Assembly (NCBI GenBank): GCA_947650365.1
Contig: OX393553.1
Location: forward strand, 41,463,949 to 41,527,948
Length of the DNA stretch: 64,000 nucleotides
From: Chamaelirium japonicum
Lineage: Eukaryota > Streptophyta > Magnoliopsida > Liliales > Melanthiaceae
Direction of reading: 5' to 3'
The first letter of the stretch is position 1. Each line of letters opens with the position of its first letter. The position numbers and the translations under genes are program-made. Below, one piece after another: positions 3,807 through 64,000 of the stretch. The notes beneath the pieces were generated by a model. That model made no database searches. It was not told the DNA's origin and saw only the letters and a list, made by a program, of their open reading frames with translations.

Positions 3807-4216
3807 TGTACTGAATTCTGGGCATTTATAGTGCCCTCATCTAATAATTTGGTTCCAGGATCTGAAATTTGATCATTCTCCATATCCAAATCCTCCTTAT
3901 AATCAGAAGCAATGTCTAGAAAATGTGTCTTAGAATTTATAGAGTCAATAACTCTAATTCTAGCAGCTTTCCTATAAGCCTGAATTTCAGTATGTGGAGC
4001 TGCCAAACTTGCTTGTTTGATTGCCAAAAGATATTCAATATTGGCCTTTGATCTCAGCCTTTCCTCTGTATGCCTGAAATTCTCTATATCTGCACTTAAA
4101 CTCTGCTTGCGAACATTGTCGCCCTTACTTGTCATATTGATCAATGATAACTCTGGATTAACTTGCTCTTCCACAAGACTTGAAACAAATCTATTGCTAT
4201 CAAGCCCAAGATCCAT
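3803..4216 (-). CDS. LINE ORF1 C-terminal remnant (137 codons, 5'-truncated)
   Basis: This is the frame directly upstream of ORF2 on the same strand, so by position it is the C-terminal tail of ORF1, the nucleic-acid-binding LINE protein. No RNA-binding fold or CCHC knuckle remains. What is left is polar and charged, for example RHTEERLRSKANIEYLLA, which could be helical. The ATG at 4216-4214 and most of the second codon are supplied by the satellite, and LINE sequence begins at the third codon. The frame is therefore a chimera at the junction and not a natural gene start. Immediately upstream in frame the satellite gives a TGA. It ends in TGA at 3803-3805, overlapping the ORF2 ATG by ATGA. 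Confidence 0.7.
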   Translation of the reverse strand: MDLGLDSNRFVSSLVEEQVNPELSLINMTSKGDNVRKQSLSADIENFRHTEERLRSKANIEYLLAIKQASLAAPHTEIQAYRKAARIRVIDSINSKTHFLDIASDYKEDLDMENDQISDPGTKLLDEGTINAQNSVQ

Positions 4217-4222
4217 TCTAAT
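4200..4222. other. LINE / satellite junction
   Basis: The LINE ends with AAGCCCAA at 4202-4209, and a complete satellite unit start (GATCCATTC) follows at 4210. The base pairs before 4210 do not match the end of a unit, so the switch is sharp. If the LINE inserted into the array, the first bases from 4210 should reappear as a target-site duplication beyond the LINE's poly(A), left of this window. Confidence 0.8.
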
Positions 4223-7200
4223 TCATTCGTACGATCCATTCTAATTCATTCGTACAATCCATTCTATTTCATTCGTATGATCCATTCTTACTCATTCGTA
4301 AGATCTATTCTAATTCATTCGCACGAATGTATCTATCTATTTCATTCGTATGATCCATTCTAATTCATTCGTACGATCCATTCTAATTCATTCATACAAT
4401 CCATTCTAATTCCTACGATCCATTCTAATTCATTCGTACAATCCATTCTAATTCATTCTCTAATTCTTTCGCACGATCCTTTCTAATTCATTCTTACGAT
4501 CCATTCTAATTCATTAGCACGATCAATTCTAATTCATTCATACAATCCATTCTAATTCATTCGTACGATCCATTCTAATTCATTCGTACGATCAATTCTA
4601 ATTCATTCGTACGATAAATTCTATTTCATTCGCACGATCCATTCTAATCCATTCGCACGAATATATCCATTCTAATTCATTCATACGATCCATTCTAATT
4701 CCTTCGTACGATCCATTCTAATTCATTCATACGATCCAATCTAATTCATTCGTACGATCCATTCTAATTCATTCGCACGATCCATTCTAATTCATTCATA
4801 CGATCCATTCTAATTCATTCGTACGATCCATTCTAATTCCTTCGTACGATCCATTCTAATTCATTCATACGATCCATTCTAATTTATTCATACAATCCAT
4901 TCTAATTCTTTCACACGATCCATTCTAATTCATTCATACGATCCAATCTAATTCATTCGTACGATCCATTCTAATTCATTCGCACGATCCACTCTAATTC
5001 ATTCATACGATCCATCCTAATTCATTCGTACGATCCATTCTAATTCCTTCGTACGATCCATTCTAATTCATTCATACGATCCATTCTACGACCCATTCTT
5101 ACTCATTCGTACGATCCATTCTAATTCATTCGCACGATCCCTTCTAATTCATTCGCATGAATGAATCCATTCTAATTCATTCGTACAATCCAGTCTATTT
5201 CATTCGTACGATCCATTCTTACTCATTTCGTACGATCCATTCTAATTCCTTCGCACAATCTATTCTAATTCATTCGTATGATCCATTCTAATTCATTCGT
5301 ATATGAATGAATTAGAATGGATCGTACGAATGAGTAAGAATGGATCGTACGAATGAGTAAGAATGGATCGTACGAATGAATTAGAATGGATCATACGAAT
5401 GAAATAGAATGGATTCACACGAATGTATCTATTCTAATTCATTCGTACGATCCATTCTAATTCATTCGTACAATCCATTCTAATTCATTCGCACGATCCA
5501 TTCGAATTCACTCATACGATCCATTCTAATTCATTCATACGATCCATTCTATTTCATTCGCACGAATGTATCCATTCTAATTCATTCGTACGATCCATTC
5601 TAATTCAGTCGCATAATCTATTCTAATTCATTCGTACGATCCATTCTAATTCATTCGGACGATCCATTCTAATTCATTTGCACGATCCATTCTAATTCAA
5701 TCATACAATCCATTCTAATTCTTTTGCACGAATGTATCCATTCTAATTCATTCGTACGATCCATTCTAATTCCTTCGTACGATCCATTCTAATTCCTTCG
5801 TACGATCCATTCTAATTCCTTTGTACGACCCATTATATTTCATTCGTATGATCCATTCTAATTCCTTTGTACGATCCATTCTAATTTATTCGCAAGAATG
5901 TATCCATTCCATTCTAATTCATTCGTACGATCCATTCTAATTCATTCACACGAATGTATCCACTCTAATTCATTCATACGATCCATTCTAATTCCTTTGT
6001 ACGATCCATTCTATTTCATTCGTATGATCCATTCTATTTCATTCGTATAATCCATTCTAATTCATTCGCACGATCCATTCTAATTTATTCATACGATCCA
6101 TTCTAATTCATTCGTACGATCCATTCTAATTCATTCGTACGATCCATTCTAATTCATTCGCACGATCCATTCTAATTCATTCATACGATCCATTTTTACT
6201 CATTCGTACGATTCATTCTAATTCATTCGCACGATCCATTCTAATTCATTCGTACGATCCATTCTATTTCATTCGTACGATCCATTCTTACTCATTCGTA
6301 CGATCCATTCTAATTCATTCGCACGAATGTATATATTCTAATTCATTCGCACGATCCTTTCTAATTCATTCGTACGATCCATTCTAATTCATTCGCATAA
6401 TCTATTCTAATTCATTCATACAATCCATTCAAATTCTTTCACACGATCCACTCTAATTCATTCGTATGATCCATTCTAATTCATTCATACGATCCATTCT
6501 AATTCATTCGTACGATCCATTCTTATTCATTCGTACGATCCATTCTAATTCATTCGCACGATTCATTCTAATTCCTTCGTACGATCCATTCTTATTTATT
6601 CCCATGAATGTATCCATTCTAATTCATACGTACGATCCATTCTAATTCATTTATACGATCCAATCTAATTCATTCATACAATCCATTCTTATTCATTCGC
6701 ACGAATTTATCCATTCTAATTCATTCGTACGATCCATTCTAATTCATTCGCACAATCCATTCTAATTCATTCATACGATCCATTCAAATTCATTCGTACG
6801 ATCCATTCTAATTCATTCGCACGATCCATTCTAATTCATTCATGCGAATGAATTAGAATGGATCGTACGAATGAATTAGAATGGATCATATGAATGAATT
6901 AGAATGGATCGTGCGAATGAATTAGAATGGATCGTACGAATGAATTAGAATGGATCGTACGAATGAATTAAAATGGATACATTCATACGAATGAATTAGA
7001 GTATGATCCATTCTTACTCATTCGTATGATCCATTCTAATTCATTCGTACGAATGTATCCACTCTAATTCATTCGTACGATCAATTCTAATTCATTCGCA
7101 CGATTCATTCTAATTCATTCGTACGATCCATTCTATTTCATTCGGACGATCCATTCTTACTCATTCGTACGATCTAGTCTAATTCATTCGCACGATCCAT

Positions 7201-8282
7201 TCTAATTTATTCGTACAATCAATTCTATTTCATTCGTACGATCCATTCTTACTCATTCGTATGATCCATTCTAATTCATTCGCACGAATGTATCTATTCT
7301 AATTCATTCGTACGATCCATTCTAATTCATTCATATGATCCATTCTAATTCATTCATACAATCCATTCTAATTCTTTCACACGATCCACTCTAATTCATT
7401 CGTACGATCCATTCTAATTCATTCGCATGAATGTATCCATTCTAATTCATTCGTACATGTATGAATGAATTAGAATGGATCGTACGAATGAATTAGAGTT
7501 GATACATTCGTGCGAATCAATTAGAACGGATCGTACGAATGAATTAGATTGGATCGTATGAATGAATTAGAATGGATCGTGCGAATGAATTAGAATGGAT
7601 CGTACGAATGAATTAGAATGGATCGTACGAATGAATTAGAATGGATACATTCGTGCAAAAGAATTAGAATGGATTGTATGAATGAATTAGAATGGATCGT
7701 GCGAATGAATTAGAATGGATACATTCGTGCGAAAGAATTAGAATGGATCGTATGTATGAATTAGATTGGATCGTATGAATGAATTAGAATGGATCGTGCG
7801 AAAGAATTAGAATGGATTGCACGAATGAATTAGAATGGATACATTCGTGCGAATGAATTAGAACGGATTGTATGAATGAATTAGAATGGATCGTGCGAAT
7901 GAATTAGAATGGATCGTACGAATGAATTAGAATGAATACATTTGTGCAAAAGAATTAGAATAGATCGTATGAATGAATTAGAATGGATCGTATGAATGAA
8001 TTAGAATGGATCATACGAAGGAATTAGAATGGATCGTACGAAGGAATTAGAATGGATCGAACGAATGAATTAGAATGGATACATTCGTGCAAAAGAATTA
8101 GAATGGATTGTATGAATGAATTAGAATGGATCGTGCGAATGAATTAGAATGGATCGTACGAATGAATTAGAATGGATACATTCGTGCGAATGAATTAGAA
8201 TGGATTGTACGAATGAATTAGAATGGATCGTACGAATGAATTAGAATGGATCGTGTGAAAGAATTAGAATGGATTGTACGAA
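4210..8282. repeat. Array section 1: mostly F, with three R blocks
   Basis: Orientation by eye: F 4210-5302, R to 5418, F to 6843, R to 7003, F to 7456, R to 8282. The switch at 5302 reads CGTATATGAATG and the one at 7456 reads CGTACATGTATGAATG; both lie at the CGTAC end of a unit. A composite block carrying CCCATGAATG sits near 6590-6740. No non-satellite sequence is seen. Confidence 0.85.
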
Positions 8283-11200
8283 TGTATCCATTCTAATTCA
8301 TTTGTGCGATCCATTCTAATTCATTCGTACGATCGATTCTAATTCATTCATACGATCCATTCTAATTCATTAGCACGATCCATTCTAATTCATTCGTACG
8401 ATCCATTCCAATTCATTAGCACGATCCATTCTAATTCATTCATACAATCCATTCTATTTCATTCGTACGATCCATTCTTACTCATTCGTACGATCCATTC
8501 TTACTCATTCGTATGATCCATTCTAATTCATTCGCACGAATGTATCCATTCTAATTCATTCGTACGATCCATTCTGATTCATTCGTACGATCCATTCTAA
8601 TTCATTCGTACGATCCATTCTAATTCATTCGCACGATCCATTCTAGTTCATTCGCACGAATGTATCCATTCTAATTCCATCGTACGATCCATTCTAATTC
8701 ATTCGTACGATCTATTCTAATTCATTCATACAATCCATTCAAATTAATTCGCACTATCCATTCTAATTCATTCATACGATCCATTCTAATTCATTCATAC
8801 AATCCATTCTAATTCATTCTAATTTATTCGTACGATCCATGAATTAGAATGGATCGCACGAATGTATCCATTCTATTTCATTCGTACGATCCATTCATAC
8901 TCATTCGTACGATCCATTCTAATTAATTTGTACGATCCATTCTAATTCATTCGCACCATCTGTTCTAATTCATTCATACGATCTATTCTAATTCATTCGC
9001 ACGAATGTATCCATTCTAATTCATTTATACGATCCATTCTAATTCATTCGTACGATCCATTCTAATTCACCCATACGATCCATTCTAATTCATTCGCACG
9101 AATATATCCATTCTAATTCCTTTGTACGATCCATTCTAATTCCTTCATACGATCTATTCTAATTCATTCGTACGATCCATTCTAATTCATTCATACGATC
9201 CAATCTAATTCATTCATTCGATCCATTCTAATTGTACGATCCATTCTTACTCATTCATACGATCCATTCTAATTCATTTGCACGAATTCATTCGTACGAT
9301 CCATTCTAATTCATTCACACGATCCATTCTAATTCATTCATACGATCCATTCTAATTCATTCGCACGATCCATTCTAATTCATTCATACGATCCAATCTA
9401 ATTCATTCATACGATCCATTCTAATTCATTCGTACAATCCATTCTAATTCAATCGCACGATCCATTCGAATTCACTCATACGATCCATTCTAATTCATTT
9501 GTATGATCCATTCCGAATGAATTAGAATGGATCGTGCTTATGATTTAGAATTGATCGTACGAATTAATTAGAATAGATTGTGCGAATGAATTAGAATGGA
9601 TCGTACGAATGAATTAGAATGGATCATACGAATGAATTAGAATGGATATATTCGTGCAAATGAATGAGAATGGATCGTATGAATGAATTAGAATGGATCG
9701 TATGAATGAATTAGAATGGATACATTCGTGCGAATGAATTAGAATGTATCCATTCATTCTAATTCTTACTAAATCGTATGATCCATTCTAATTCATTCGC
9801 ACGAATGTATCCATTCTAATTCATTCGCACGATCCATTCTAATTCATTCATACGATCCATTCTAATTCTTTTGCACGAATGTATCCATTCTAATTCATTC
9901 GTACGATCCATTCTAATTCATTTGTACGATCCATTCTAATTCATTCGCACGATCCATTCTAATTCATTAATACGATCCAATCTAATTCATTCGTACGATC
10001 CATTCTAATTCATTAGCACAAATGTATCAACTCTAATTCATTCGTACGATCCATTCTAATTCATTCATACATGTACTAATGAATTAGAATGGATACAATC
10101 GTGCGAATGAATTAGAATGGATCGTACAAATGAATTAGAATGGATCGTGTGAAAGAATTAGAATGGATTGTATGAATGAATTAGAATGGATCGTACGAAT
10201 GAATTAGAATGGATCGTACGAATGAATTAGAATTGATACATTCGTGCGAATGAATTAGAATGGATCGTACGAATGAGTAAGAATGGATCGCCATTCGAAT
10301 TCATTCGCACGATCCATTCTAATTCATTCGTACGATTCAATCTAATTCATTCATACGATCCATTCTAATTCATTCGTACGATCCATTCTAATTTATTCAT
10401 ACGATCCATTCTAATTCATTCGAACGATCCATTCTAATTCATTCGTACGAACCATTCTAATTCATTCGCACGAATGTATCCATTCTAATTCATTCGTACG
10501 ATCCATTCTAATTCATAAGTACGATCCATTCTAATTCATTCATACGATCCATTCTAATTCATTTGCAAGGAATGAATTAGAATAGATTGTGCGAATGAAT
10601 TAGGATGGATCGTGCGAATGAATTAGAATGGATTGTACGAATGAATTAGAATGGATCGTACGAATGAATTAGAATGGATCATGCGAATGAATTAGAATGG
10701 ATCGTACGAATGAATTAGAATGGATCGTACGAATGAATTAGAATGGATCGTGCTAATGAATTAGAATGGATCGTACGAAGGAATTAGAATGGATCGTACG
10801 AATGAAATAGAATGGATACATTCGTACGAATGAATTAGAATGGATCATACGAATGAGTAAGAATGGATCGTACGAATGAATTAGAATGGGTCGTACGAAG
10901 GAATTAGAATGGATCGTATGAATGAATTAGAATGGATCGTACGAATGAATTAGAATGGATATATTCATGGGAATGAATAAGAATAGATCGTACGAATGAA
11001 TTAGAATGGATCGTACGAATGAATTAGAATGGATCGTGCGAATGAAATAGAAAGGATCGTACGTATGAATTAGAATGGATCGTGCGAAAGAATTAGAATG
11101 GATCGTATGAATGAATTAGAATGGATCGTACGAATGAATTAGAATGGATCGTGCGAATGAATTAGAATTGATTGTACGAATGAATTAGAATGGATACATT

Positions 11201-12489
11201 CGTGCGAATGAATTAGAATGGATCGTATGAAAGAATTAGATTGTATGAAGGAATTAGAATGGATCATACGAATGAAATAGAATGGATCATAATCTAATTC
11301 ATTCATACGATCCATTCTAATTCATTCGCACAATCTATTCTAATTCATTCGTACGATCCATTCCAATTCATTCGTACGATCTATTCTAATTCATTCGTAC
11401 GATCCATTCTAATTCATTCGCTCGAATGTATCCATTCTAATTCATTCGCACAATCTATTCTAATTCAATCATACGTTCCATTCTAATTCATTAGCACGAT
11501 CCATTCTAATTCATAAGTACGATCCATTCTAATTCATTCATATGATCCATTCTAATTCATTTGCACGATCCATTCTAATTCATTCATACGATCCATTCTA
11601 ATTCTTTCGTACGATCCATTCTAATTTATTCATACGATCCATTATAATTCATTCGTACGATCCATTCTTACTCATTCGTACGATCCATTCTAATTCATTC
11701 GCACGAATGTATCAACTCTAATTCATTCGCACGATCCATTCTAATTCATTCGTTTGATTCATTCGTATGATCCATTCTAATTCATTTATACGAATGTATC
11801 CACTCTAGAATGGATCGTGCAAATTAGAATGGATCGTACGAATGAATTAGATTGGATCATATTAATGAATTAGAATGGATCGTACGAATGAATTAGAATG
11901 GATACATTCATGCGAATGAATTAGAATGTATCGTACGAATGAATTAGAATGGATACATCCATTCGAATGAATTAGAATGGATCGTACGATAGAATTAGAA
12001 TGGATCATACGAATGAAATAGATCGTACGAAGGAATTAGAATGGATCGTACGAAGGAACTAGAATGGATCGTACGAAGGAATTAGAATGGATCATACTAA
12101 TGAAATAGAATGGATCGTACGAATGAATTAGAATAGATCGTGCGAATGAATTAGAATGGATCATACGAATGAATTAGAATAGATTGTGCGAACGAATTAG
12201 AATGGATCGTACAAATGAATTAGAATGGATCGTACGAATGAATTAGAATGGATCGTATGAATGAATTAGAATGGATCGTGCGAATAAATTAGAATGGATC
12301 GTACGAATGAATTAGCATCAAATGAATGAATTAGAGTGGATACATTCATACGAATGAATTAGAATGGATCATACGAATGAATCGTACGAATGAATTAGAA
12401 TGGATCGTGCGAAAGAATTAGAATGGATCGTACGAAGGAATTAGAATGAATCGTACGAATGTATCCATTCTAATTCACTAGCACGATCG
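8282..12489. repeat. Array section 2: eight alternating blocks
   Basis: Orientation by eye: F 8282-9512, R to 9745, F to 10072, R to 10291, F to 10568, R to 11291, F to 11806, R to 12455, then a single F unit to 12489. Several switches fall inside a unit (for example ATCCATTCCGAATG at 9505-9518), so not all use the CGTAC end. No non-satellite sequence is seen. Confidence 0.83.
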
Positions 12490-14588: not shown

Positions 14589-14759
14589 ACGTTCCATTCT
14601 AATTCATTTGCATAATCTATTCTAATTCATTCGTACGATCCATTCTAATTCATTAGCACGATCCATTCTAATTCATTCGCACGATCCATTCTAATTCATT
14701 CGCACGATCCATTCTAATTCATTCGCACGATCCATTCTAATTCATTCGTACAATCCATT

Positions 14760-15530: not shown

Positions 15531-15591
15531 AACATACGATCCATTCTAAATCATTCATATGATCCTATCTAATTCATTCGTACGATCCATT

Positions 15592-21305: not shown

Positions 21306-24300
21306 TTCTAATTCATTCGTACGATCTATTCTAATTCATTTGCACGAATGTATCCATTCTAATTCATTCGTACGATCCATTCTAATTCATTCGCACGATC
21401 CATTCTAATTCATTCATACGATCAAATCTAATTCATTCGTACGATCCATTCTAATTCATTCACACAATCTATTCTAATTCATTAGCACGATCCATTCTAA
21501 TTCATTCGTATGATCCATTCTATTTCATTCGTACGATCCATTCTAATTCATTCGTACGATCTATTCTAATTCATTCGCACGAATGTGTCTATTCTAATTC
21601 ATTCGTACGATCCATTCTAATTCATTCATACGATCCATTCTAATTCATTCGCACAAATATATCCATTCTAATTCATTCGTACGATCCATTCTAATTCATT
21701 CGCACAATCTATTCTAATTCATTCGTACGATCAATTCTAATTAATTCGCATGATCCATTCTAATTCATTTGCACGATCTATTCTAATTCATTCATACAAT
21801 CCATTCTAATTCTTTTGCACGAATGTATCCATTCTAATTCATTCGTACGATCCATTCTAATTCATTCGTACAATCCATTCTATTTCATTCGTACAATCCA
21901 TTCTAATTCATTCGCACGATTCATTCTAATTCATTCATACGATCCAATCTAATTCATTCATACGATCCATTCTAATTCATTAATACGATCCAATCTAATT
22001 TATTCATACGATCCATTCTAATTCCTTCGTACGATCCATTCTAATTCATACGATCCAATCTAATTCATTCATTTGATCCATTCTAATTCGTTCGTACGAT
22101 CCATTCTAATTCATTCGTACGATCCATTCTAATTCATTAATACGATCCAATCCAATTCATTCATACAATCCATTCTAATTCCTTCGTACGATCCATTCTA
22201 ATTCATACGATCCATTCTATTTCATTCATACGATCCATTCTAATTCATTCGCACGATCCATTCTAATTCATTCATACGATCCATTCTAATTCATTCGTAC
22301 GATCCATTCTAATTCACTCGTACGTTCCATTCTAATTCATTAGCACGATCCATGCTAATTCATTCGTACGATCCATTCTAATTCATTCGCACGATCCATT
22401 CTAATTCATTCATACGATCCATTCTAATTCATTTGTACGATCCATTCTAATTCATTCGTACGATCCATTCTAATTCATTCGCACAATCGATTCTAATTCA
22501 TTCGTACGATCCATTCTAATTCATTCGCACGATCCATTCTAATTCATTCATACGATCCATTCTATTTCATTCGTACGATCCATTCTTACTCATTCGTACG
22601 ATCCATTCTAATTCATTCGCACGAATGTATCCATTCTAATTCATTCATACGATCCATTCTAATTCATTCGTACGATCCATTCTAATTCATTCGCACAACC
22701 TATTCTAATTCATTCGTACGATCCTTTCTAATTCATTTGCACGATCCATTCTATTTCATTCGTACGATCTATTCTTACTCATTCGTATGATCCATTCTAA
22801 TTCATTCGCACGAATGTATCCATTCTAATTCATTCGTACGATCCATTCTAATTTCTTCGTACGATCCATTCTAATTCCTTCGTACGATTCATTCTAACTC
22901 CTTTGTATGACCAATGGATCGTATGAATGAATTAGATTGGATCTTATGAATGAATTATAATGGATCGTGCGTCGTACGAATGAATTAGAATGGATACATT
23001 CCTGCGAATGAATTAGAATGGATCGTACGAATGAGTAAGAATGGATCGTACGAATGAAATAGAATGGATTATATGTATGAATTAGAATGGATCGTGCGAA
23101 TGAATTAGAATGGATCGTACGAATGAATTAGAATGGATCGTGTGAAGGAATTAGAATGGATTGTATGAATGAATTAGAATGGATCGTACGAATGAATATT
23201 CTAATTCATTCGTACGATCCATTCTAATTCATTCGTACAATCCATTCTATTTCTTTCGTATGATCCATTCTTACTCATTCGAACGATCCATTCTAATTCA
23301 TTCGCACGAATGTATCCATTCTAATTCATTCGTATGATCCATTCTAATTCATTCGTACGATCCATTCTAATTCATTCGTACGATCCATTCTAATTCATTC
23401 GCACGATCCATTCTAAATCATTCGCACGAATGAATCTATTCTAATTCATACGTACGATCCATTCTAATTCATTCATACGATCCATTCTAATTCATTCATA
23501 CAATCCATTCTAATTCTTTCACACGATCCATTCTAATTCATTCGTACGATCCATTCTAATTCATTAATACAATCCATTCTATTTCATTCGTACGATCCAA
23601 TTATACTCATTCGTACGATCCATTCTAATTCATTCGTACGATCCATTCTACTTCATTCGCACGAACTATTCTAATTCATTCGTACCCATTCTAATTCATT
23701 CCCACGAATGTATCCATTCTAATTCATTCATACGATCCATTCTAATTCATTCGTACGATCCATTCTAATTCATTCGCACGATCCATTCTAATTCATTCAT
23801 ACGATCCTATCTAATTCATTCATACGATCCATTCTAATTCATTCGCACGAATGTATCCATTCTAATTCATTCGTACGATCCATTCTAATTAAGTCGCACA
23901 ATCTATTCTATTTCATTCTTAAGGGATACATTCGTGCGAATGAATTAGAATGGATCATGCGAATGAATTAGAATAGATTTTGCGAATGAATTAGAATGGA
24001 TCGTACGAATAAATTAGAATGGATCATACGAATGAATTAGAATGGATCGTATGAATGAATTAGAATGGATCGTACGAATGAATTAGAGTGGATCGTGTTT
24101 TTTCGTGCTATTGAATTAGAATGGATCGTACGGAATGAATTAGAATGGATCGTGGAAATGAATTAGAATGGATCGTGAGAATGAATTAGAATGGATCGTG
24201 CGAATGAATTAGAATGGATACATTCGTGCGAATGAATTAGAATGGATGCATTCGTGCGAATGAATTAGAATGGATCGTACGAATGAATTAGAATGGATCG

Positions 24301-30254: not shown

Positions 30255-33200
30255 TGCATTCTAATTCATTCATACGATCCATTATAATTCATTCATACAA
30301 TCCACTCTAATTCATTCTAATTTATTCGTAATTCGTACGATCCATTCTAATTCATTAGCACGATCCATTCTAATTCATTCGTACGAACTATTCTATTTCA
30401 TTCGAACGATCCATTCTTACTTAATCGTATGATCCATTCTAATTCATTCGCAAGAATGTATCCATTCTAATTCATTCGTACGATCCATTCTAATTCATTC
30501 GCACAATCCATTCTAATTAATTAATACGATCCAATCTAATTCATTCATACGATCCATTCTAATTCATTCGCATGAATGTATCGATTCTAATTCTTTCGTA
30601 CGATCCATTCTAATTCATTTGCACAATCTATTCTAATACATTCGTACGATCCATTCTAATTCATTAGCACGATCCATTCTAATTCATTCGTACGATCCAT
30701 TCTAATTCATTCGTACGATCCATTCTAATTTATTCGCACGATCTATTCTAATTCACTCATACATGTACGAATGAATTAGAATGGATACATTCGTGCGAAT
30801 GAATTAGAATGGATCGTATGAATGAATTAGATTGGATCGTATGAATGAATTAGAATGGATCGTGCGAATGAATTAGAATAGGTCGTACGAATGAATTAGA
30901 ATGGATCGTACGAATGAATTAGAATGGATACATTCGTGCAAAAGAATTAGAATGGATTGTATGAATGAATTAGAATGGATCGTGCAAATGAATTAGAATG
31001 GATCGTACGAATGAATTAGAATGGATACATTCGTGCGAATGAATTAGAATGGATCGTGCGAATGAATTAGAATGGATCGTGCGAATGAATTAGAATGGAT
31101 CGTATGAATGAATTAGAATGGATCGTGTGAATGAATTAGACTGGATCGTGCGAATGAATTAGAATGGATCGTACGAATGAATTAGAATGGATTGTATGAA
31201 TGAATTAGAATGGATCGTACGAAGGAATTAGAATGGATCATACAAACGAATTAGAATGGAACGTATGAATGAATTAGAGTGGATACATTCGTACGAATGA
31301 ATTTATCCATTCTAATTCATTCGTACGATCCATTCTAATTTATTCGTACGATCCATTCTAATTCATTCATACGATCCATTCTAATTCATTCGTATGATCC
31401 ATTCTAATTCATTCGCACGATCCATTCTAATTCATTCATACGATCCAATCTAATTTATTCATACGATCCATTCTAATTCATTCGCACAATTTATTCTAAT
31501 TCATTCATACGATCCATTCTAATTCATTCGTACGATCTATTCTAATTCATTCGTACGATCCATTCTAATTCATTCATACGATCCATTCTAACGTACGAAT
31601 GAATTAGAATAGATCGTACGAAGGAATTAGAATGGATCGTACGAAGGAATTAGAATGGATCATACGAATGAATTAGAATGGATACATTCCTACAATCCAT
31701 TCTAATTCATTCGTACGACCCATTCTAATTCATTCGCACGAATGTATCCATTCTAATTCATTCGAACGATCCATTCTAATTCCTTCGTACAATCCATTCT
31801 TATTCATTCGCACGATCTATTCTAATTCCTTCATTCTATTTCATTCATACGATCCATTCTAATTCATTCATACGATCCATTCTAATTCATTTGCATGATC
31901 CATTCTAATTCATACGTACGATCCATTCTATTTCATTCGTACGATCCATTCTAATTCATTCGTACGATCCATTCTAATTCATTCATACGATCTATTCTAA
32001 TTCATTCGTACGATCCATTCTTATTCATTCCCATGAATGTATCCATTCTAATTCATACGTACGATCCATTCTAATTCATTTATACGATCCAATTTAATTC
32101 ATTCATACAATCCATTCTAATTCATTCACACGAATTTATCCATTCTAATTCATTCGTACGATCCATTCTATTTCATTTGTACGATCCATTCTTACTCATT
32201 TGTACGATCCATTCTAATTCATTTGCACGAATATATCCATTCTAATTCATTCGTACGATCCATTCTAATTCCTTCGTACGATCCATTCTAATTCATTCGC
32301 ACGAATATATCCATTCTAATTCATTCGTACGATCCATTCTAATTCATTCGTACGATCCCTTCTAATTCATTAATACGATCCAATCTAATTCATTCGTACG
32401 ATCCAATCTAATTCATTCGCACGATCCATTCTAATTCATTCATACGATCCAATCTAATTCATTCATACGATCCATTCTAATTCATTCGCACGAATGTATC
32501 CATTCTAATTCATTCGGACGATCCATTCTAATTCATTCATACAATCCATTTTAATTCATTCGTACGATCCATTCTAATTCATTCGCACGATCTATTCTAA
32601 TTCATTCATACGATCCAATCTAATTCATTCGTACGATCCATTCCTTCATACGACGAATGAATTAGAATGGATCGTGCGAATGAATTAGAATGGATCGTAC
32701 GAATGAATTAGAATGGATCGTACGAATGAATTAGAGTAGATACATTCGTACGAAGGAATTAGAATGGATCGTACGAATGAATTAGAATGGATACATTCGT
32801 GCGAATGAACTAGAATGGATCGTATGAATGAATTAGAATTGATTGTGCGAATGAATTAGAATGGATCGTGCGAATGAATTAGAATGGATCGTACGAATGA
32901 ATTAGAATGGATACATTCGTGCGTTCTAATTCATTCCTACGATCCATTCTAATTCATTCGCACGAATGTATCCATTCTAATTCATTCGTACAATCCATTC
33001 TAATTCTTTCGTACGATCCATTCTAATTCGCACGAAGGAATTAGAATGGATCGTACAAAGGAATTAGAATGTACGATCTATTCTAATTCATTCGCACGAT
33101 CCATTCTAATTTATTCGTATGATCCATTCTAATTCATTCGCACGAATGTATCCATTCTAATTCATTCGTACGATCCATTCTAATTCATTCGTACAATCCA

Positions 33201-36200
33201 TTCTATTTCATTCGTACGATCCATTCTAATTCATTCATACGATCCATTCTAATTCATTCGTACGATCTATTCTAATTCATTCGTACGATCTATTCTAATT
33301 CATTCGTACGATCCATTCTAATTCATTCATACGATCTATTCTAATTCAATCATATGATCCATTCTAATTCATTCGTCCGATCCATTCTAATTCATTCGCA
33401 TGATCCATTCTAATTCATTCATACGATCCAATCTAATTCATTCGTACGATCCATTGTAATTCATTCGTACGATCCATTCTAATTCCTTCGTACGATCCAT
33501 TCTAATTCCTTCGTACGATCCATTCTAATTCCTTCGTATGATCCATTCTAATTCATTCATACGATCTATTCTAATTCATTCGCACAAATGTATCCATTTA
33601 ATTCATTCGTACGATCCATTCTAATTCATTCGCACGAATGTATCCATTCTAATTCCTTCGTATGATCCATTCTAATTCCTTCGTACGATCCATTCTAATT
33701 CCTTCGTATGATCTATTCTATTTCATTCGTATGATCCATTCTAATTCATTCGTACGATCCATTCTAATTCCTTCGTACGATCCATTCTAATTCATACGAT
33801 CCATTCTATTTCATTCATATGATCCATTCTAATTCATTCGCACAATCCATTCTAATTCATTCATACGATCAATTCTAATTTATTCGTACGATCCATTCTA
33901 ATTCATTTGCACGATCCATTCTAATTCATTCATACGATACATTCTAATTCATTCGTACGATCCATTCTAATTCATTCGCACGATCCATTCTAATTCATTC
34001 ATACGATCCATTCTAATTCATTCGTACAATCCATTCTAATTCATTCGCACGAATGTATCCATTCTAATTCATTCATACGATCCATTCTAATTTATTCGCA
34101 CGATCCATTCTAATTCATTCATACGATCCAATCTAATTCATTCATACGATCTATTCTAATTCATTCGCACAATCTATTCTAATTCATTCGTACGATCCAT
34201 TCTAATTCATTCGTACGATCCATTCTAATTCATTCATACGATCCATTCTAATTCATTCATACGATCCATTATAATTCATTCGTACGATCCATTCTAATTC
34301 ATTCGTACGATCCATTCTAATTAATTCGCACGATCCATTCTAATTCATTCATACGATCCAATCTAATTCATTTATACGATCCATTCTATTTCATTCGCAC
34401 AATCTATTCTAATTCTTTCGCACGATCCATTCTAATTCATTCGCCGTACGAATGAATTAGAATGGATCGTATGAATGAATTAGAATGGATCGTGTATCCA
34501 TTCTAATTCATTCGCACGATCCATCCTAATTCATTCATACGATCCATTCTAATTCATTCGCACGAACGTATCATTCTAATTCATTCGCACGAATTTATCC
34601 ACTCTAATTCATTCGTACGATCCATTCTAATTCATTCGAACAATCAATTCTAATTCATTCGTACAATCCCCTCTATTTCATTCGTACGATCCATTCTTAC
34701 TCATTCGTACGATCCATTCTAATTCAGAATGGATACATTCGTGCGAATGAATTAGAATGGATCATACGATTGAGTAAGAATGGATCGTACAAATGAAATA
34801 GAATGGATCGTACGAAGGAATTAGAATGGATCGTACGAAGGAATTAGAATGGATCGTACGAATGAATTAGAATGGATACATTCGTGCGAATGAATTAGAA
34901 TGGATCGTGCTAATGAATTAGAATGGATCGTACGAAGGAATTAGAATGGATCGTACAAATAAAATAGAATGGATACATTCGTATGAATAAATTAGAATGG
35001 ATACATTCGTACAATCCATTCAAATTCATTCGCACGATCCATTCCGTACGATCCGTTCTAATTCATTCGCACGAATGTATCCATTCTAATTCATTCGTAC
35101 GATCCATTCGAATTCATTCGTACGATCCATTCTAATTCATTCACACGATCTATTCTAATTCATTCGTACGATCCACTCTAATTCATTCGCACGATCCATT
35201 CTAATTCATTTGCACAATCCATTCTAATTCATTCATACAATCCATTCTAATTCATTTGCACGAATGTATCCATTCTAATTCATTCGTATGATCCATTCTA
35301 ATTCATTCGTACAATCCATTCTATTTCATTCGTACGATCCATTCTAATTCATTCGTACAATCCATTCTAATTCATTCGTACGATCCATTCTACAATCCAT
35401 TCTAATTCATTCATACGTTCCATTCTAATTCATTAGCACGATCCATGGTAATGAATTAGAATGGATCGTACGAAGGAATTAGAATGGATCGTACGAAAAA
35501 ATTAGAATGGATCGTACGAAGGAATTAGAATGGATCATATGAATGAATTAGAATGGATCGTACGAATGAACTAGAATGGATACATTCGTCGTACAATCTA
35601 TTCTAATTCATTCGTACGATCCATTCTAATTAATTCGTACGATCCATTCTATTTCATTCGCACGATCCATTCTAATTCATTCGCACGAATGTATCCATTC
35701 TAATTCATTCATACGATCCATTATAATTCATTCATACAATCCATTCTAATTCTTTCACACGATCCATTCTAATTCATTCGTACGATCCATTCAAATTCAT
35801 TCGTACCATCCATTCTATTTCATTCGTACGATCCATTCTAATTCATTCGTACGATCCATTCTTATTCATTCATACGAATGTATCCACTCTAATTCATTCG
35901 TACGATCCATTCTAATTCATTCCCACAATCTATTCTAATTCATTCATACGATCCATTCTAATTCATTCGCACGAATGTGTCCATACGAATGAATTAGAAT
36001 GGATACATTCGTCTGAATGAATTAGAATGGATCATACGAATGAGTAAGAATGGATCGTACGAATGAAATAGAATGGATTGTACGAATGAATTAGATTGGA
36101 TCGTATGAATGAATTAGAATGGATCGTGCGTCGTTCGAATGAATTAGAATGGATTGTATGAATAAATTAGAATGGATCGTGCTAATGAATTAGAATAGAT

Positions 36201-36949
36201 TGTGCGAATGAATTAGAATGGATCGTACGAATGAATTAGATTGGATCGTATGAATAAATTAGAATGGATCGTGCGAATGAATTAGAATGGATCGTACGAA
36301 TGAATTAGAATGGATCGTACGAATGAATTAGAACGGATCGTACAAAGGAATTAGAATGGATCGTACGAAGGAATTAGAATGGATACATTCGTCGCACAAT
36401 CTATTCTAATTCATTCGTACGATCCATTCTAATTCATTCGTAAGATCCAATCTATTTCATTCGCACGATCCATTCTAATTCATTCGCACGAATGTATCCA
36501 TTCTAATTCATTCATACGATCCATTCTAATTCATTCATACAATCCATTCTAATTCTTTCACACGATCCATTCTAATTCATTTGTACGATCCATTCTAATT
36601 TATTCGTACAATCCATTCTAATTCATTCGTACGATCCATTCGAATTCATTCGTACGATCCATTCTAATTCATTCGTACGATCCATTCAAATTCATTTGCA
36701 TGAATGTATCCATTCTAATTCATTCGTACGATCCATTCTAATTCATTCGCACAATCTTTTCTAATTTATTCATATGATCCATTCTAATTCATTCATACAA
36801 ACCATTCTAATTCTTTCACACGCACGAATACATTCGTACGATCCATTCTTACTCATTCGTACGATCCATTCTAATTCATTCGCACGATCCATTCTAATTC
36901 ATTCATACGGTCCATTCTATTTCATTCATACGGTCCATTCTAATTCATA
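30254..36949. repeat. Array section 8: the most finely interleaved part
   Basis: Orientation by eye: F 30254-30768, R to 31305, F to 31591, R to 31690, F to 32654, R to 32924, F to 33030, R to 33072, F to 34443, R to 34494, F to 34727, R to 35012, F to 35446, R to 35589, F to 35985, R to 36393, F to 36949. Blocks of only two units occur (33030-33072, 34443-34494). A composite CCCATGAATG block lies near 32015-32160. Confidence 0.82.
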
Positions 36950-51400: not shown

Positions 51401-51800
51401 TTAGATTGGATCGTACGAATAAATTAGAATGGATACATTCGTGCGAATGAATTAGAATGGATTGTATGAATGAATTAATGGATCGTATGAATGAATTAGA
51501 ATGGATCGTGCGAATGAATTAGAATGAATCGTACGAATGAATTAGAATGGATCGTATGAATGAATTAGAATGGATCGTGCGAATGAGTTAGAATGGATCG
51601 TGCGAATGAGTTAGAATGGATCGTGCGAATGAATTAGAATGGATACATTCGTGCGAATGAATTAGAATGGATTGTATGAATGAATTAGAATGGATCGTAC
51701 GAATGAATTAGAATGGAACGTACGAATTAATTAGAATGGATACATTCGTGCGAATGAATTAGAATGGATCATACGAATGAGTAAGAATGGATCGTACGAC
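48455..51800. repeat. Array section 12: five alternating blocks
   Basis: Orientation by eye: R 48455-49127, F to 49666, R to 50278, F to 51086, R to 51800. The R block 48455-49127 ends inside a composite block (CGTACGTATGAATTAG then GGATAATTCATTC), so an inversion breakpoint cut that block. A similar cut block occurs near 57000-57076. Confidence 0.82.
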
Positions 51801-56213: not shown

Positions 56214-59200
56214 GAATGTATCCATTCTAATTCATTCGTACAATCAATTCTAATTCCTTCGTACGATCCAATCTAATTCCTTCGTATGATCCATTCTAAT
56301 TCCTTCGTACGATCCATTCTAATTCATTCGTACGATCCATTCTAATTCATTCGTACGATCCATTCTAATTCTTTCGCACGATCCATTCTAATTCATTCAT
56401 ACGATCCAATCTAATTCATTCGTACGATCCATTCTAATTCATTCGCACAATCTATTCTAATTCATTCGCACAATCTATTCTAATTCATTCGCACAATCTA
56501 TTCTAATTCATTCGTACGATCTATTCTAATTCATTCGTACGATCCATTCTAATTCATTCGTACGATCCATTCTAATTCATTCATACGATCCAGTCTAATT
56601 CATTCGTATGACGCACGATCAATTCTAATTCATTCATACGATCCAATCTAATTCATTCGTACAATCTATTCTATTTCATTCGTACGATCCATTCTTACTC
56701 ATTCATACGATCCAATCTAATTCATTCGTACGATCCATTCTAATTCATTCGTATGATCCATTCTAATTCATTCATACGATCCATTCTAATTCATTCGCAC
56801 GATCCATTCTAATTTATTCACAGGATCCATTCTAATTCATTCGCACGAATGTATCCATTCTAATTCCTTCGTACGATCCATTCTAATTCATTCGTACGAT
56901 CCATTCTAATTCATTCGCACGATCCATTCTAATTCATTCGCACGAATGTATCCATTCGTACGAATGAATAGAATGGATCGTACGAATGAATTAGAATGGA
57001 TAAATTCGTGCGAATGAATTAGAATGGATTGTATGAATGAATTAGATTTGATTGTATAAATGAATTAGAATGGATAATTCATTCATACGATCCATTCTAA
57101 TTCATTCATACAATCCATTCTAATTCTTTCACACGATCCATTCTAATTCATTCATACGATCCATTCCAATTCATTCGTACGATTAGAATGGATCGTACGA
57201 ATGAATTAGAATGGATACATTCGTGCGAATGAATTAGAATGAAGGAATTAGAATGGATCGTGCGAATGAATAAGAAAGGATCGTACGAAGGAATTAGAAT
57301 GGATCGTATGAATGAATTAGAATGGATACATTCGTGCGAATGAATTAGAATGGATCGTACGAATGAATTAGAATGGATTGTGCGAATGAATTAGAATGGA
57401 ACGTACGAATGAATTAGAATGGATACGGTCCATTCTAATTCATTCGTACAATCCATTCTATTTCATTCGTACGATCCATTCTTACTCATTCATACGATCC
57501 ATTCTAATTCATTCGCACGAATGTATCCAATCTAATTCATTCGTACGATCCATTCTAATTCATTCGTACGATCCATTCTATTTCATTCGCACGATCCATT
57601 CTAATTCATTCGCATGATCCATTCTAATTCAATCGCACGAATGTATCCATTCTAATTCCTTCGTACGACGAATGAATTAGAATGGATCGTGCGAATGAAT
57701 TAAAATGGATCGTACGAATGAATTAGAATGGATCGTGCGAATGAATTAAAATGGATCGTACGAATGAATTAGAATGGATACATTCGTGCGAATGAATTAG
57801 AATGGATCGTATAAATGAATTAGAATAGATTGTGCAAATGAATTAGAATGGATCATGCGAATGAATTAGAATGGATTGTATGAATGAATTAGAATGGATC
57901 GTACGAATGAATTAGAATGGATTGTGCGAATGAATTAGAATGGATCGTACGAATGAATTAGATTGGATCGAACGAATGAATTAGAATGATCATATGAATG
58001 AGTAAGAATGGATCGTATGAATGAATTAGATTGGATCGTATGAATGAATTAGAATAGATCGTGCGAATGAATTAGAATGAATCATACGAATGAAGTAGAA
58101 AGGATCGTACGAATGAATTAGAATGGATACATTCGTGCAAAAGAATTAGAATGGATTGTATGAATGAATTAGAATGGATCGTGCGAATGAATTAGAATGG
58201 ATCGTATGAATGAATTAGATTGGATCGTATGAATGAATTAGAATGGATCATGCGCTATACGAATGAATTAGAATGGATCGTATTAATGAATTAGAATGGA
58301 TCGTGCGAATGAATTAGAATGGATCATACGAATGAATTAGAATGGATCGTATAAATGAATTAGAATGGATATATCCATTCTAATTCATTCGTACGATCCA
58401 TTCTAATTCCTTCGTACGATCCATTCTAATTCCTTCGTACGATCCATTCTAATTCCTTTGTACGACCCATTATATTTCATTCGTACGATCCATTCTAATT
58501 CATTCGCACGATCCATTCTAATTCATTCGCACGAATGAATCCATTCTAATTCATTCGTTAAATCCATTCTATTTCATTCGTATGATCCATTCTTACTCAT
58601 TCGTACGATCCATTCTAATTCATTCGCACGAATGTATCCATTCTAATTCATTTATATGTTCCATTCTAATTCCTTCGTACGATCCATTCTAATTCATATG
58701 ATCCATTCTATTTCATTCATACGATCTATTCTAATTCATTCATACGATCCAATCTAATTCATTCATACGATCCATTCTAATTCATTCGTATGATCCATTC
58801 TAATTCATTCGTACGATCCATTCTAATTCATTAGCACAATCCATTCTAATTCATTCGTACGATCCATTCTATTTCATTCATACGATCCATTTCTTATTCA
58901 TTCGTACGATCTATTATATTTCATTCGTACGATCTATTATATTTCATTCGTACGATCCATTCTAATTCATACGATCCATTCTATTCCATTCATACGATCC
59001 ATTCTAATTCATTCGTACGATCCATTCTAATTCATTCGTGCGATCCATTCTAATTCATTCGCACTATCAATTCTAATTCATTCATACAATCCATTCTAAT
59101 TCTTTCGTACGATCCATTCTTACTCAATCGTACGGTCCATTCTAATTCATTCGCACGAATGTATCCATTCTAATTCATTCATACGATCCATTCTAATTCC

Positions 59201-60063
59201 TTCGTACAATCCAGTCTAATTCATTCGTACGATCCATTCTAATTCATTCACGATCCTGCGAATGAATTAGAATGGATCGTACGAATGAATTAGAATGGAT
59301 CGTATGAATGAATTCAAATGGATCGTGCGAATGAATTAGAATGGATCGTGCGAATGAAATAGAATGGATACAAATGAATTAGAATGGATCATACGTACGA
59401 TCCATTATATTTCATTCATACAATCCATTCTTACTCATTCGTATGATCCATTCTAATTCATTTGCACGAATGGATCCATTCTAATTCATTCATACAATCC
59501 ATTCTTACTCATTCGTATGATCCATTCTAATTCATTTGCACGAATATATCCATTCTAATTCATTCGTATGACCCATTCTATTTCATTCGTATGATCCATT
59601 CTTACTCATTCGTACGATCCATTCTATTTCATTCGCACGATCCATTCTAATTCATTCGCACGAATATATCCATTCTAATTCATTCATACGATCCATTCTA
59701 ATTCATTCATACAATCCATTCTAATTCTTTCACACGATCCATTCTAATTCATTTGTATGATCTATTCTAATTCATTCATTCGTACGAATGTATCTATTCT
59801 AATTCATTCGCACGAATGTATCCATTCTAATTCATTCATACGATCCATTCTAATTGATTCGCACAATCCATTCTAATTCATTTGCACGAATATATCCATT
59901 CTAACTCATTCGTATGATCCATTTTAATTCATTCCTACGATCCATTCTAATTCATTCGCACAATCTATTCTAATTCATTCATACGATCAATTCTAATTCA
60001 TTAGCATGATCCATTCGAATTTACTCATACGATCCATTCTAATTCATTCGTATGATCCATTCC
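56213..60063. repeat. Array section 15: nine alternating blocks
   Basis: Orientation by eye: F 56213-56958, R to 57076, F to 57183, R to 57427, F to 57667, R to 58373, F to 59252, R to 59396, F to 60063. The switch at 56958 reads CCATTCGTACGAATG, a palindromic core. No non-satellite sequence is seen. Confidence 0.82.
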
Positions 60064-63000
60064 GAATGAATTAGAATGGATTGTACAAATGAATTAGAAT
60101 GAATTAGAATGGATTGTACGAATGAATTAGAATGGATTGTACGAATGAATTAGAATGGATCGTATGAATGAATTAGATTGGATCGTATGAATGAATTAGA
60201 ATGGAATGTGCGAATGAATTAGAATGGATCGTACGAATGAATTAGAATGGATCGTACGAATGAATTAGGATGGATCGTGCGAATGAATTAGAATGGATCG
60301 TACGAATGAATTAGAATGGATACATTCATGCAAATGAATTAGAATGGATCGTACGAATGAGTAAGAATGGATCGTACAATTAGAATGGATCGTGCGAATG
60401 AATTAGAATGGATCGTACGAATGAATTAGAATGGATCGTACGAATGAATTAGAATGGATCGTGCTAATGAATTAGAATTGATCGTACGAATGAATTAGAA
60501 TAGATTGTGCGAATGAATTAGAATGCGTACGAATGAAATAGAATGGATGGTACGAATGAATTAGAATGGACTCATTCGTGCGAATGAATTAGAATAGATT
60601 GTGCGAATGAATTAGAATGGATGGTACGAATGAATTTGAGTGGATAAATTCATGCGAATGAATTAGAATGGATTGTATGAATGAGTAAGAATGGATCGTA
60701 CGAATGAATTAGAATGGATTGAATTAAAATGAATCGTACGAATGAATTAGAATGGATCGTATGAATGAATTAGAACAAAGGAATTAGAATAGATCGTATG
60801 AAGGAATTAGAATGGATCGTACGAAGGAATTAGAATTGATCGTACGAATGAATTAGATTGGATACATTCGTGCGAATGAATTAGAATGGATACATTCGTG
60901 TGAAAGAATTAGAATGGATCGTACGAATGAATTAGAATGGATACATTCGTGCGAAAGAATTAGAATGGATCGTATGAATGAATTAGAATGGAACGTACGA
61001 ATGAATTAGAATGGATCGTACGAATGAATTAGAATGGATAGATTCGTGCGAATGAATTAGAATGGTCGTACGAATGAGTAAGAATGGATCGTACATTCGT
61101 GCGATTGAAATAGAATGGATTGTACGAATGAATTAGAATGGATCGTACGAATGAATTAGAATGGATACATTCGTGCAAAAGAATTAGAATGGATTGTATG
61201 AATGAATTAGAATGGATCGTACGAAGGAATTAGAATGGATCGTACGAAGGAATTAGAATGGATCATACGAATGAAATAGAATGGATCGTATGAATGAATT
61301 AGAATGGATCGTGCGAATGAATAAGAATGGATCGTACGAATGAATTAAAATAGATTGTGCGAATGAATTAGAATGGATCGTACGAATGAATTAGAATGGA
61401 TCGTACGAATGAATTAGAATGGATCGTATGAATGAATTAGAATGGATCGTGCGAACGAATTAGAATGGATCGTACGAATGAATTAGCATCGAATGAATGA
61501 ATTAGATTGGATCGTATGAATGAATTAGAATGGATCGTACGAATGAATTAGAATGGATCGTATGAATGAATTAGAATGGATCGTGCGAGTGAATTAGAAT
61601 GGATCGTATGAATAAATTAGATTGGATCGTACGAATGAATTAGAATGGATCGTACGAATGAATTAGAATGGATCGTACGAATGAATTAGAATGGATCGTA
61701 TGAATGAATTAGAATGGATCGTGCAAATGAATTAGAATGGATCGTACGATACGAATGAAATATAATGGGTCGTACAAAGGAATTAGAATGGATCGTACGA
61801 AGGAATTAGAATGGATCGTACGAAGGAATTAGAATGGATACATTCGTGCGAATGAATTACAATGGATTGTTCGAATGAGTAAGAATGGATCGTACGAATG
61901 AATTAGAATGGATACATTCGTGCGAATGAATTAGAGTGGATCGTGCGAATGAATTAGAATGGATTGTATGAATGAATTAGAAATTCATTCATACGATCCA
62001 ATCTAATTCATTCATACGATCCATTCTAATTCATTCGTACGATCCATTCTAATTCTTTCGTACGATCCATTCTAATTCATTCATTCGATCCATTCTAATT
62101 CATTCGCACGAATGTATCCATTCTAATTCATTCGCACGAATGAATCCATTCTAATTCATTCGTACAATCCATTCTAATTCCTTCGTATGATCCATTCTAT
62201 TTCATTCGTATGATCCATTCTAATTCATTCGTATGATCCATTCTAATTCCTTCGTACGATCCATTCTAATTCATACGATCCATTCTATTTCATTCGTATG
62301 AATTAGAATGGATCGTATGAATGAATTAGAATGGATCGTATGAATGAATTGGAATGGATCGTACGAATGAATTAGATTGGATCGTATGAATGAACTAGAA
62401 TGGATCATGCGAATGAATTAGAATGGATCGTACGAATGAATTAGAATGGATCGTACAAAGGATTGATACATTCGTGCTAATGAATTAGAATGGATCGTAC
62501 GAATGAATTAGATTGGATCGTATGAATGAATTAGAATGGATCGTGCGAATGAATTAGAATGGGATCGTACGAATGAATTAGAATGGATATATTCGTGAAA
62601 ATGAATTAGAATGGATCGTATGAATGAATTAGAATGGATCGTACGAATGAATTAGAATGGATCGTACGAATGAATTAGAATGGATCGTACGAATGAATTA
62701 GAATAAATGGATCATATGAATGAATTAGAATAGATACATTCGTGCGAATGAATTAGAATGGATCATACGAATGAGTAAGAATGGATCGTACGAATGAAAT
62801 AAATGGATTGTATGAATGAATTAGAATGGATCGTACGAATGAATCATAATAGATTGTGCGAATGAATTAGAATGGATCGTACGAATGAATTAGAATGGAT
62901 TGTTCGAATGAATTAGAATGGATCGTACGAATGAATTTTAATGGATACATTCGTGCAAATGAATTAGAATGGATCGTACGAATGAGTAAGAATGGATCGT

Positions 63001-64000
63001 ATGAATGAAATAGAATGGATTGTACGAATGAATTAGAATGGATTCATTCGAATGAATTAGAATGGATCGTACGAATGAATTAGAATGGATCGTACGAATG
63101 AATTAGAATGGATACATTCGTACGAATGAATTAGAATGGATACACGATCCATTCTAATTCATTCATACGATCCATTCTAATTCATTCGTACGATCCATTC
63201 TAATTATTTCACACGATCCATTCTATTTCATTCATAAGTTCCATTCTAATTCATTCGCACGATCCATTCTAATTCATTCATACGATCTATTCTAATTCAT
63301 TCGTACGATCCATTCTAATTCATTTGCACGATCCATTCTAATTCATAAGTACGATCCATTCTAATTCATTCGTACGATCCATTCTAATTCCTTCATACGA
63401 TCCAATCTAATTCATTCGTACGATCCATTTTAATTCATTCGCACAATCTATTCTAATTCATTCGTACGATCCATTCTAATTCATTCGTACGATCCATTCT
63501 AATTCCTTCGTACGATCCATTCTAATTCCTTCGTACGATCCATTCTAATTCATTCGCACGAATGTATCCATTCTAATTCATTCATACGATCCATTCTAAT
63601 TCATTCGTACAATCCACTCTATTTCATTCGTACAATCCATTCTTACTCATTCGTACGATCCATTCTAATTTATTCGCACGAATGTATCCATTCTAATTCC
63701 TTCGTACGATCTATTCTAATTCCTTGTACAATCCATTCTATTTCATTCGTACGATCCATTCTTACTCATTCGTACGATCCATTCTAATTCATTCATACGA
63801 TCCATTCTAATTCATTCGCACGATCCATTCTAATTCATTCATACAATCCAATGTAATTCATTCGTACGATCCATTCTAATTCATTCGTACGATCCATTAT
63901 AATTCATTCGCACGATCCATTCTAATTCATTCATACAATCCAATCTAATTCATTCTTACGATCCATTCTAATTCATTCGTATGATCCATTCTAATTCCTT
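60063..64000. repeat. Array section 16: large R block, then F to the window edge
   Basis: Orientation by eye: R 60063-61982, F to 62300, R to 63145, F to 64000, where the array runs off the window. A rare junction TTAGCATC followed by GAATGAATGAATTAG lies at about 61482 and matches one at 12312. Confidence 0.83.

Follow-up and report, generated by a model that had tools for sequence, protein, structure and literature searches.

Chio, the holocentromere satellite of Chionographis japonica, is bound by CENH3 and carries dyads, and its arrays were reported from a high-fidelity (HiFi) assembly as a mixture of forward (F) and reverse (R) orientation, with interlocus conversion, inversions, and extrachromosomal circular DNA (eccDNA) discussed for array spread (PMC10264360). 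A 2025 paper describes Chio as having a "frequently alternating orientation" and puts forward breaks induced by hairpins, together with non-allelic conversion; it contrasts Chio with Chama of Chamaelirium luteum in the sister genus, likewise a centromere satellite, which shares the 9-mer TTCGTACGA with Chio and has a 60-bp monomer, consistently oriented arrays, and higher-order repeats (PMC12722358). We found no analysis of the origin of the Chio flips in the open full-text papers searched or in the text of these two (PMC10264360, PMC12722358), figures and supplements apart. Here, we report on a 64,000-nucleotide stretch of DNA from Chamaelirium japonicum, which is the taxonomy listing's name for the Chionographis japonica of the satellite papers. 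This stretch (C5:41463949-41527948, hereafter the window) carries a Chio array that changes orientation over and over, and in our reading, to which we give a probability of about 0.7, strand-blind joins together with the copying of old junctions, in a repeat-based holocentromere, account for the flip pattern. The satellite and its alternating orientation are already published; new here are the numbers and the tests of mechanism.

Orientation blocks in the window

Unit orientation was mapped along the window with a hidden Markov model (HMM) built on the 23-bp unit GATCCATTCTAATTCATTCGTAC, which has 23 circular states for each orientation and allows insertions, deletions, and switches. Such a map had been proposed in a first-pass annotation of the same DNA, and it confirms the flips and the near balance described there: positions 4210-64000 fall into 105 blocks with a mean length of 569 bp and a median of 424 bp, 30,002 bp being F and 29,789 bp R, where a hand count had given about 103 blocks, 29.9 kb of each orientation, and a mean below 600 bp. 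Blocks of one or two units do exist as claimed, the shortest complete one in the window being 24 bp. The block count was unchanged at a switch prior of 1e-3 or 1e-5 and was 99 at 1e-8. The span 4210-64000 is indeed satellite array, but it does not give the array limits for which it had been taken: satellite fills all 19.4 kb fetched to the left of a long interspersed nuclear element (LINE), and the 40 kb fetched on the right is all satellite except for one 2.2-kb insertion.

The window repeat is almost certainly Chio1 (23 bp) and Chio2 (28 bp), and the earlier statement that this satellite was not recognized as described was wrong, alternating orientation included (PMC10264360, PMC12722358). 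Monomer pieces are 23 bp long in 3,934 and 28 bp long in 543 of 5,158 cases, which fits the Chio1 and Chio2 lengths, and the two monomers (GATCC... versus GAATGTATCC...) differ by a 5-bp indel that matches the Chio1/Chio2 definition; the published consensus sequences also have one further substitution between them (PMC10264360). Literature searches by sequence returned nothing, the published monomer letters standing in Fig. 3b of that paper. The shared Chio 9-mer is present in the window consensus (...CATTCGTAC followed by GATCC...), and the published F/R mixture is found in the window, in its flanks, and in genome-wide counts. The unit preceding Chio2 often appears to be GCAC in the sequence as printed, an uncounted impression. 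CATTC, which is also the pentamer of human satellites 2 and 3 (PMC4022460), occurs twice in each unit, probably by coincidence. The assembly comprises 1,518,659,071 bp in 3,253 contigs, 12 of them chromosome-size (1,090,673,439 bp together, the eighth measuring 81,106,678 bp), and pattern counts put the amount of Chio at 277-390 Mb (pooled 335 Mb), and at least 136 Mb, of these 1,519 Mb. Satellite was present in 4 of 40 small tiles (0 of 20 on C5, 4 of 20 elsewhere), which, being unweighted for length, give only a rough genome fraction.

The near 50:50 balance had been offered as what repeated random inversion would approach. The balance itself stands, whereas its evidential value is weak: the total lies near 50:50 because blocks alternate by definition and F and R block means are equal (550 versus 573 bp in the window, Mann-Whitney p 0.63; the F-R difference has an expected standard deviation of about 5.6 kb). 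The 124 kb fetched around the window contains 117 kb of satellite with 184 switches, and its 181 complete blocks show no F/R difference (means 611 and 633 bp, p 0.86) and exponentially distributed lengths (Kolmogorov-Smirnov p 0.57). F and R monomer spectra are nearly alike (Pearson 0.993 and Spearman 0.73 for the 60 commonest variants), and of 60 pairs of rare variants separated by over 1.5 kb, 28 agree in orientation. Genome-wide, exact dimers number 104,647 and 104,273 for the two orientations, and exact neighbor pairs are 2,983,762 F-F, 2,941,368 R-R, 90,184 F-to-R, and 64,659 R-to-F. There are thus 0.026 switch pairs per same-orientation pair, against 0.042 in the fetched regions, and window flips are therefore denser than average. 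Eight 5-kb satellite pieces from other contigs have 0-11 switches each, 41 per 38.3 kb of satellite; one of them, C7:43842001-43847000, is a Chio array with no switch, so that flip density varies among arrays. These counts suggest some 330,000 switches in the assembly, roughly one per kb, an estimate calibrated on 440 HMM switches (206 of them matched by the patterns), with the C5 window region and its counterpart contig C143 counted separately and an equal detection rate assumed elsewhere.

Selection that keeps the alternation for hairpin building or CENH3 loading seems very improbable to us. The satellite is CENH3-bound and has dyads (PMC10264360), and Tribolium madens arrays in putative centromeric regions have inverted sub-arrays (PMC13081366); against this, switch spacing is memoryless, the junctions are diverse, the centromere satellite of Chamaelirium luteum in the sister genus is of constant orientation (PMC12722358), and the C7 stretch does without switches altogether.

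The switches are shared by a second contig

C143 is a second, haplotype-like contig, which we compared with C5 through unique 60-mer anchors. The two are collinear, 28,498 of 30,100 anchors forming one chain. Among the 184 C5 switches, 41 lie outside the chain, 21 fall in unaligned gaps, and the remaining 122 are aligned; C143 shares every one of them. Conversely, C143 has 131 switches, 5 in gaps and 126 aligned, and C5 shares 122 of the latter. Satellite divergence between the contigs is 1.08% (68,159 aligned bases). That the flips are real and inherited is, in our opinion, practically certain. The first-pass annotation had held that uniform orientation in raw long reads would turn the flips into assembly errors; such errors are not supported, given that two separately assembled contigs share 122/122 alignable C5 switches, a judgment made at the level of contigs. 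An assembly artefact is in fact barely conceivable: misassembly is common in tandem repeats, and assembled contigs alone are the material here, but contigs about 1% apart agree on all alignable C5 switches, of 12 further stretches 11 have flips (C143, three from C5, and seven of the eight 5-kb pieces), and the authors' HiFi assembly shows the same mixture (PMC10264360).

Unit indels are frequent between C5 and C143: the chain changes diagonal 70 times, in 26 cases by exactly 23 bp. Along the 68 kb of aligned satellite, no new inversion between the two contigs was seen. Reverse anchors apart from the forward alignment form six clusters, each displaced from the diagonal by more than 600 bp or situated past its end. 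Please note that, of 20 inversions of 150-1000 bp implanted into the sequence, the HMM called 18 and that flips below about 60 bp are poorly tested.

How switches are renewed and copied

Four aligned C143 switches have no partner in C5; two of these are joins at pieces that C143 lacks, and the other two delimit one 27-bp flip. The C143 join corresponding to 37919/44201 makes a new R-to-F switch, 127 of 127 bases of which are accounted for by the C5 flanks. The join corresponding to 45015/46907 is also an R-to-F switch; its 7 shared bp are ACGAATG, a Chio2 unit forms the right side, and the score is 98/101. A deletion in C143 would be the simpler reading of both the 6.3-kb and the 1.9-kb piece, a polarity that we infer. 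The 27-bp flip is also found in a C5 paralogue and is therefore older than the allele split, and it was then lost or converted in C5.

C143 further contains a direct repeat at an offset of 1,768 bp (1.37 kb, 1,359 of 1,369 positions identical) with three switches in each copy; this offset was not seen at the corresponding place in C5. Direct duplication is also the prevailing relation within the 124-kb region, where a monomer-level local alignment returned 15 direct duplicate segments versus 1 inverted at scores above 25 (shuffled maximum 12.8), the two largest direct duplicates enclosing 7 and 10 switches. Direct duplication thus copies switches, and microhomology joins across opposite blocks renew them.

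Junction structure and its bearing on origin

The 184 junctions have 150 distinct 24-bp signatures, and 131 F-to-R matches comprise 70 distinct strings. Mean microhomology is 1.73 bp, against 0.90 bp when simulated joins are put through this HMM; 3 bp or more is shared in 22% versus 9.5%, and nothing is shared in 54 of the 150 distinct junctions. Sharing of 8 bp is found in 8 of 150 (5.3% versus 2.0% in HMM-called random joins). Chio2-type links lie within 10 bp of a junction in 38 of 184 cases against 16.9 expected, and Chio2 units carry a short inverse piece, GAATG. This piece and the dyad TCGTACGA would aid strand-blind joins, explaining only a minority of junctions.

Such features recall fold-back template switching, i.e., a broken or stalled end folding at the dyad TCGTACGA and copying backwards, with one palindromic junction per event. 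The dyads of Chio (PMC10264360), the excess of 8-bp sharing, the unpaired junctions, the enrichment of Chio2-type links, and the hairpin-induced breaks proposed for spreading (PMC12722358) all go with it. The flanks of the junctions, however, are scarcely more mirror-like than random F/R pairs (identity over 115 bp 0.891 versus 0.888, p 0.25, 201 junctions; over 230 bp 0.889 versus 0.886, p 0.043, 142 junctions), and with zero microhomology in over a third of the distinct junctions we consider fold-back improbable as the source.

Neighboring junctions show no excess of the phase relation expected from inversion (37 of 274 versus 34.4 permuted; simulated inversions were recovered in 49 of 60 cases). 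An origin of blocks by clean insertion was likewise unsupported (39 of 274 versus 38.7 permuted; the relation was recovered for 37 of 60 simulated insertions). Phase-shifting joins between units of the same orientation are roughly as numerous as the switches, 150 versus 150 distinct, in a loose parity; shifts of 3-20 were counted without 18, the Chio2 insertion, and 165 of 215 simulated joins were detected. The idea that switches are far commoner than same-orientation phase jumps was dropped, the inclusion of insertion-type events having led to this parity. Exact matches in direct versus inverted orientation (68,484 versus 68,288 at 40 bp, 5,174 versus 4,916 at 60 bp, and 103 versus 61 at 100 bp) were tried as evidence of exchange and left unused: direct matches are in excess at 100 bp, and the near equality at the shorter lengths is mostly due to common variants shared by F and R.

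We weigh these results against repeated in-place random inversion, in which a segment freed by double breaks is rejoined in reverse, accumulating to 50:50, or a homologous flip-flop of segments between opposite blocks that makes no new junctions. The F/R balance, the exponential block lengths, the one variant pool common to F and R, and the same junction on both strands within 136 kb would all suit such a process, and saturated long inversions would be expected to leave unpaired neighbors and many same-orientation phase shifts. On the other hand, no new inversion appears over 68 kb at 1.08% divergence, against 70 diagonal changes; none of the six reverse-anchor clusters lies on the diagonal; inversions of 150-1000 bp were callable in 18 of 20 implants, with those under about 60 bp poorly tested; junctions are paired no more often than the permuted null; and duplicates are 15 direct to 1 inverted. 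We therefore consider inversion or flip-flop unlikely. Of the first-pass annotation, the flips and the near balance hold, and repeated random inversion is not shown to be an active process, the resolved switch differences being deletions and a direct duplication. Orientation-blind joins are favored over inversion because the two C143 deletion joins and the direct duplication were resolved, and we lean toward such joins as the main origin of the junctions.

Spread of junctions within and between chromosomes

Five window junctions selected for their oddness all recur on another chromosome-size contig, with 62, 3, 8, 3, and 34 exact genomic copies (Table 1). Four of them had previously been seen only in C5 and C143, and the 62-copy one also in another C5 stretch. 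The C12 locus keeps four successive switches of the window at nearly equal spacing, and among places in the 124-kb C5 region the C12 stretch matches the window place best (score 1290 versus 878 for the next); from these sequences, we read the block runs of C12 and the window as probably related by descent. Two of the odd junctions form a pair 753-800 bp apart at window 59239/60039, C143:685796/686596, C5:14908107/14908884, and C103:139778/140531.

It is quite probable that copying spreads switches between centromere units. We are evenly divided on a stronger statement, namely that junctions are inherited barcodes of strand-blind segment exchange between units across chromosomes and that the alternation is the footprint of holocentromere spread and turnover and not of local inversion. 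The shared junctions fit the 2025 proposal of hairpin breaks and non-allelic conversion introduced above. As a separate observation, among the junction matches listed for C1:1.36-1.93 Mb, a few strings recur every few kb, which suggests higher-order repeats that include switches.

Insertions in the array

The left end of the window is occupied by a LINE of 4,792 bp in total, 4,209 bp inside the window and 583 bp past its left end, and the insertion is common to C5 and C143. Pfam domains are RVT_1 (E 9.8e-46), Exo_endo_phos (2.3e-05), and zf-RVT (1.8e-18); an open reading frame (ORF) at 1323-3806 has the reverse transcriptase and endonuclease, and another at 2-1348, in a different frame, has zf-RVT. 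The left end of the element bears a T-run. Another insertion, of 10 kb with 2.1-kb ends that are 97.8% alike, lies at C143:695501-705509, where C5 has a single 2.16-kb copy (window-equivalent 69080-71239); this looks like a full-length long terminal repeat (LTR) element versus a solo LTR.

Table 1. Positions of the features in the window (strand "." where none applies).
Feature	Position	Strand	Remarks
Chio1/Chio2 centromeric satellite array	4210..64000	.	HMM segmentation into 105 blocks (30,002 bp F, 29,789 bp R); runs on past the window
Odd R-to-F junction	23168..23210	-	3 exact genomic copies, also C6
Odd F-to-R junction	32620..32665	+	3 genomic copies: window, C143, C12
Block run R258/F119/R41	32653..33070	.	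recurs on C12 as R283/F117/R41
Odd F-to-R junction	34432..34460	+	34 exact copies (23 +, 11 -), also C2, C3, C4, C7, C10, C12
Ends of 6.3 kb absent from C143	37919..44201	.	R block left, F block right, 3 bp shared
Ends of 1.9 kb absent from C143	45015..46907	.	R block left, F block right, 7 bp shared
Odd F-to-R junction	59239..59270	+	8 exact genomic copies, also C4
Odd F-to-R junction	60039..60074	-	62 exact copies (24 +, 38 -), 9/12 chromosome-size contigs and small contigs
Site of the sole small C5/C143 flip	61640..61730	.	27-bp flipped piece in C143 and in a C5 paralogue 36.8 kb off, absent here
Plant LINE, apparently 5'-truncated (inferred), inserted in array	1..4209	-	Pfam domains, ORFs, satellite on either side
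GATCCATTCT, possible 10-bp target-site duplication of the LINE	4210..4219	+	flanks read by eye; weak, the word occurs in satellite flanks anyway

Discussion

The joins and copies described above suggest the following course of events. Older events would first have set blocks in opposite orientation. Strand- and phase-blind joins, be they deletions, duplications, or segments reinserted or converted, whose ends lie in opposite blocks, would then make and renew the pattern, and transfer between centromere units would carry switches already formed to new places in either orientation. On this view, the near 50:50 balance and the memoryless block lengths would be the equilibrium of such orientation-blind turnover and not the product of current inversion.

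Several points weigh against this account, and it is not our intention to pass over them. The five recurring junctions were chosen for oddness, and the 62-copy one had turned up earlier at several of the places fetched. F-to-R strings overlap little between the fetched regions and C1, 2 of the 70 distinct strings of the former being among the 32 distinct strings of the first 100 C1 matches listed, and many junctions are therefore local to their arrays. In 136 kb of C5 (14.79-14.93 Mb), one odd junction occurs five times on strands -, +, -, +, -, and junctions are therefore turned over or are copied or inserted either way round. The junction pair at 59239/60039 has strands +/- in the window and C143 and +/+ at C5 14.908 Mb and C103, as if a segment had been turned over between paralogues. 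The 6.3- and 1.9-kb pieces, compared between two contigs, may be a loss in C143 or a gain in C5. Of two further differences between the contigs, one of 2.1 kb joins blocks of one orientation (R to R), and one of 1.5 kb at 34882-36444 (R to F) gives no clean join. The parity of 150:150 is a loose one, some same-orientation joins being slippage deletions. Deletions create junctions yet cannot raise the number of switches, and an older source of flips is therefore needed; most of these patterns would also be expected from long inversions of older date or from flip-flop.

The junctions offer a direct test of the routes by which centromere units have multiplied along the chromosomes of a holocentric plant. 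Every odd one tags a segment lineage whose copies elsewhere can be mapped, dated, and compared with the proposed non-allelic conversion, eccDNA reinsertion, and inversion, and two of the haplotype differences show a route to a new switch without inversion.

Comparison with described systems

The Chio paper concerns the same satellite, and its text, as distinct from figures and supplements, contains neither a switch density nor a law of block lengths, and neither a comparison of haplotypes nor an analysis of junctions (PMC10264360). The sugar-beet minisatellite BvMSat05 resembles Chio in that several of its arrays contain a head-to-head junction; the junction arrays there have a conserved 50-bp motif on one flank, unlike Chio (PMC2820488). 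CUS-TR24 of Cuscuta europaea is a plant satellite that likewise has LINE insertions, segmental duplications, and inversions, but its neighboring arrays are mostly of the same orientation (40-45% versus 10-15%) (PMC8091179). The nearest array-level analogue that we found is the macro-dyads of TmSat1 and TmSat2 in Tribolium madens, abundant satellites of putative centromeric regions with orientation changes within arrays (PMC13081366). These macro-dyads mostly consist of two several-kb sub-arrays per array and have few, highly conserved inversion sites (PMC13081366), whereas the window has 105 blocks per 60 kb with a mean of 569 bp, and the junctions here are of many kinds, with 150 distinct signatures among 184 junctions and 70 strings among 131 F-to-R matches.

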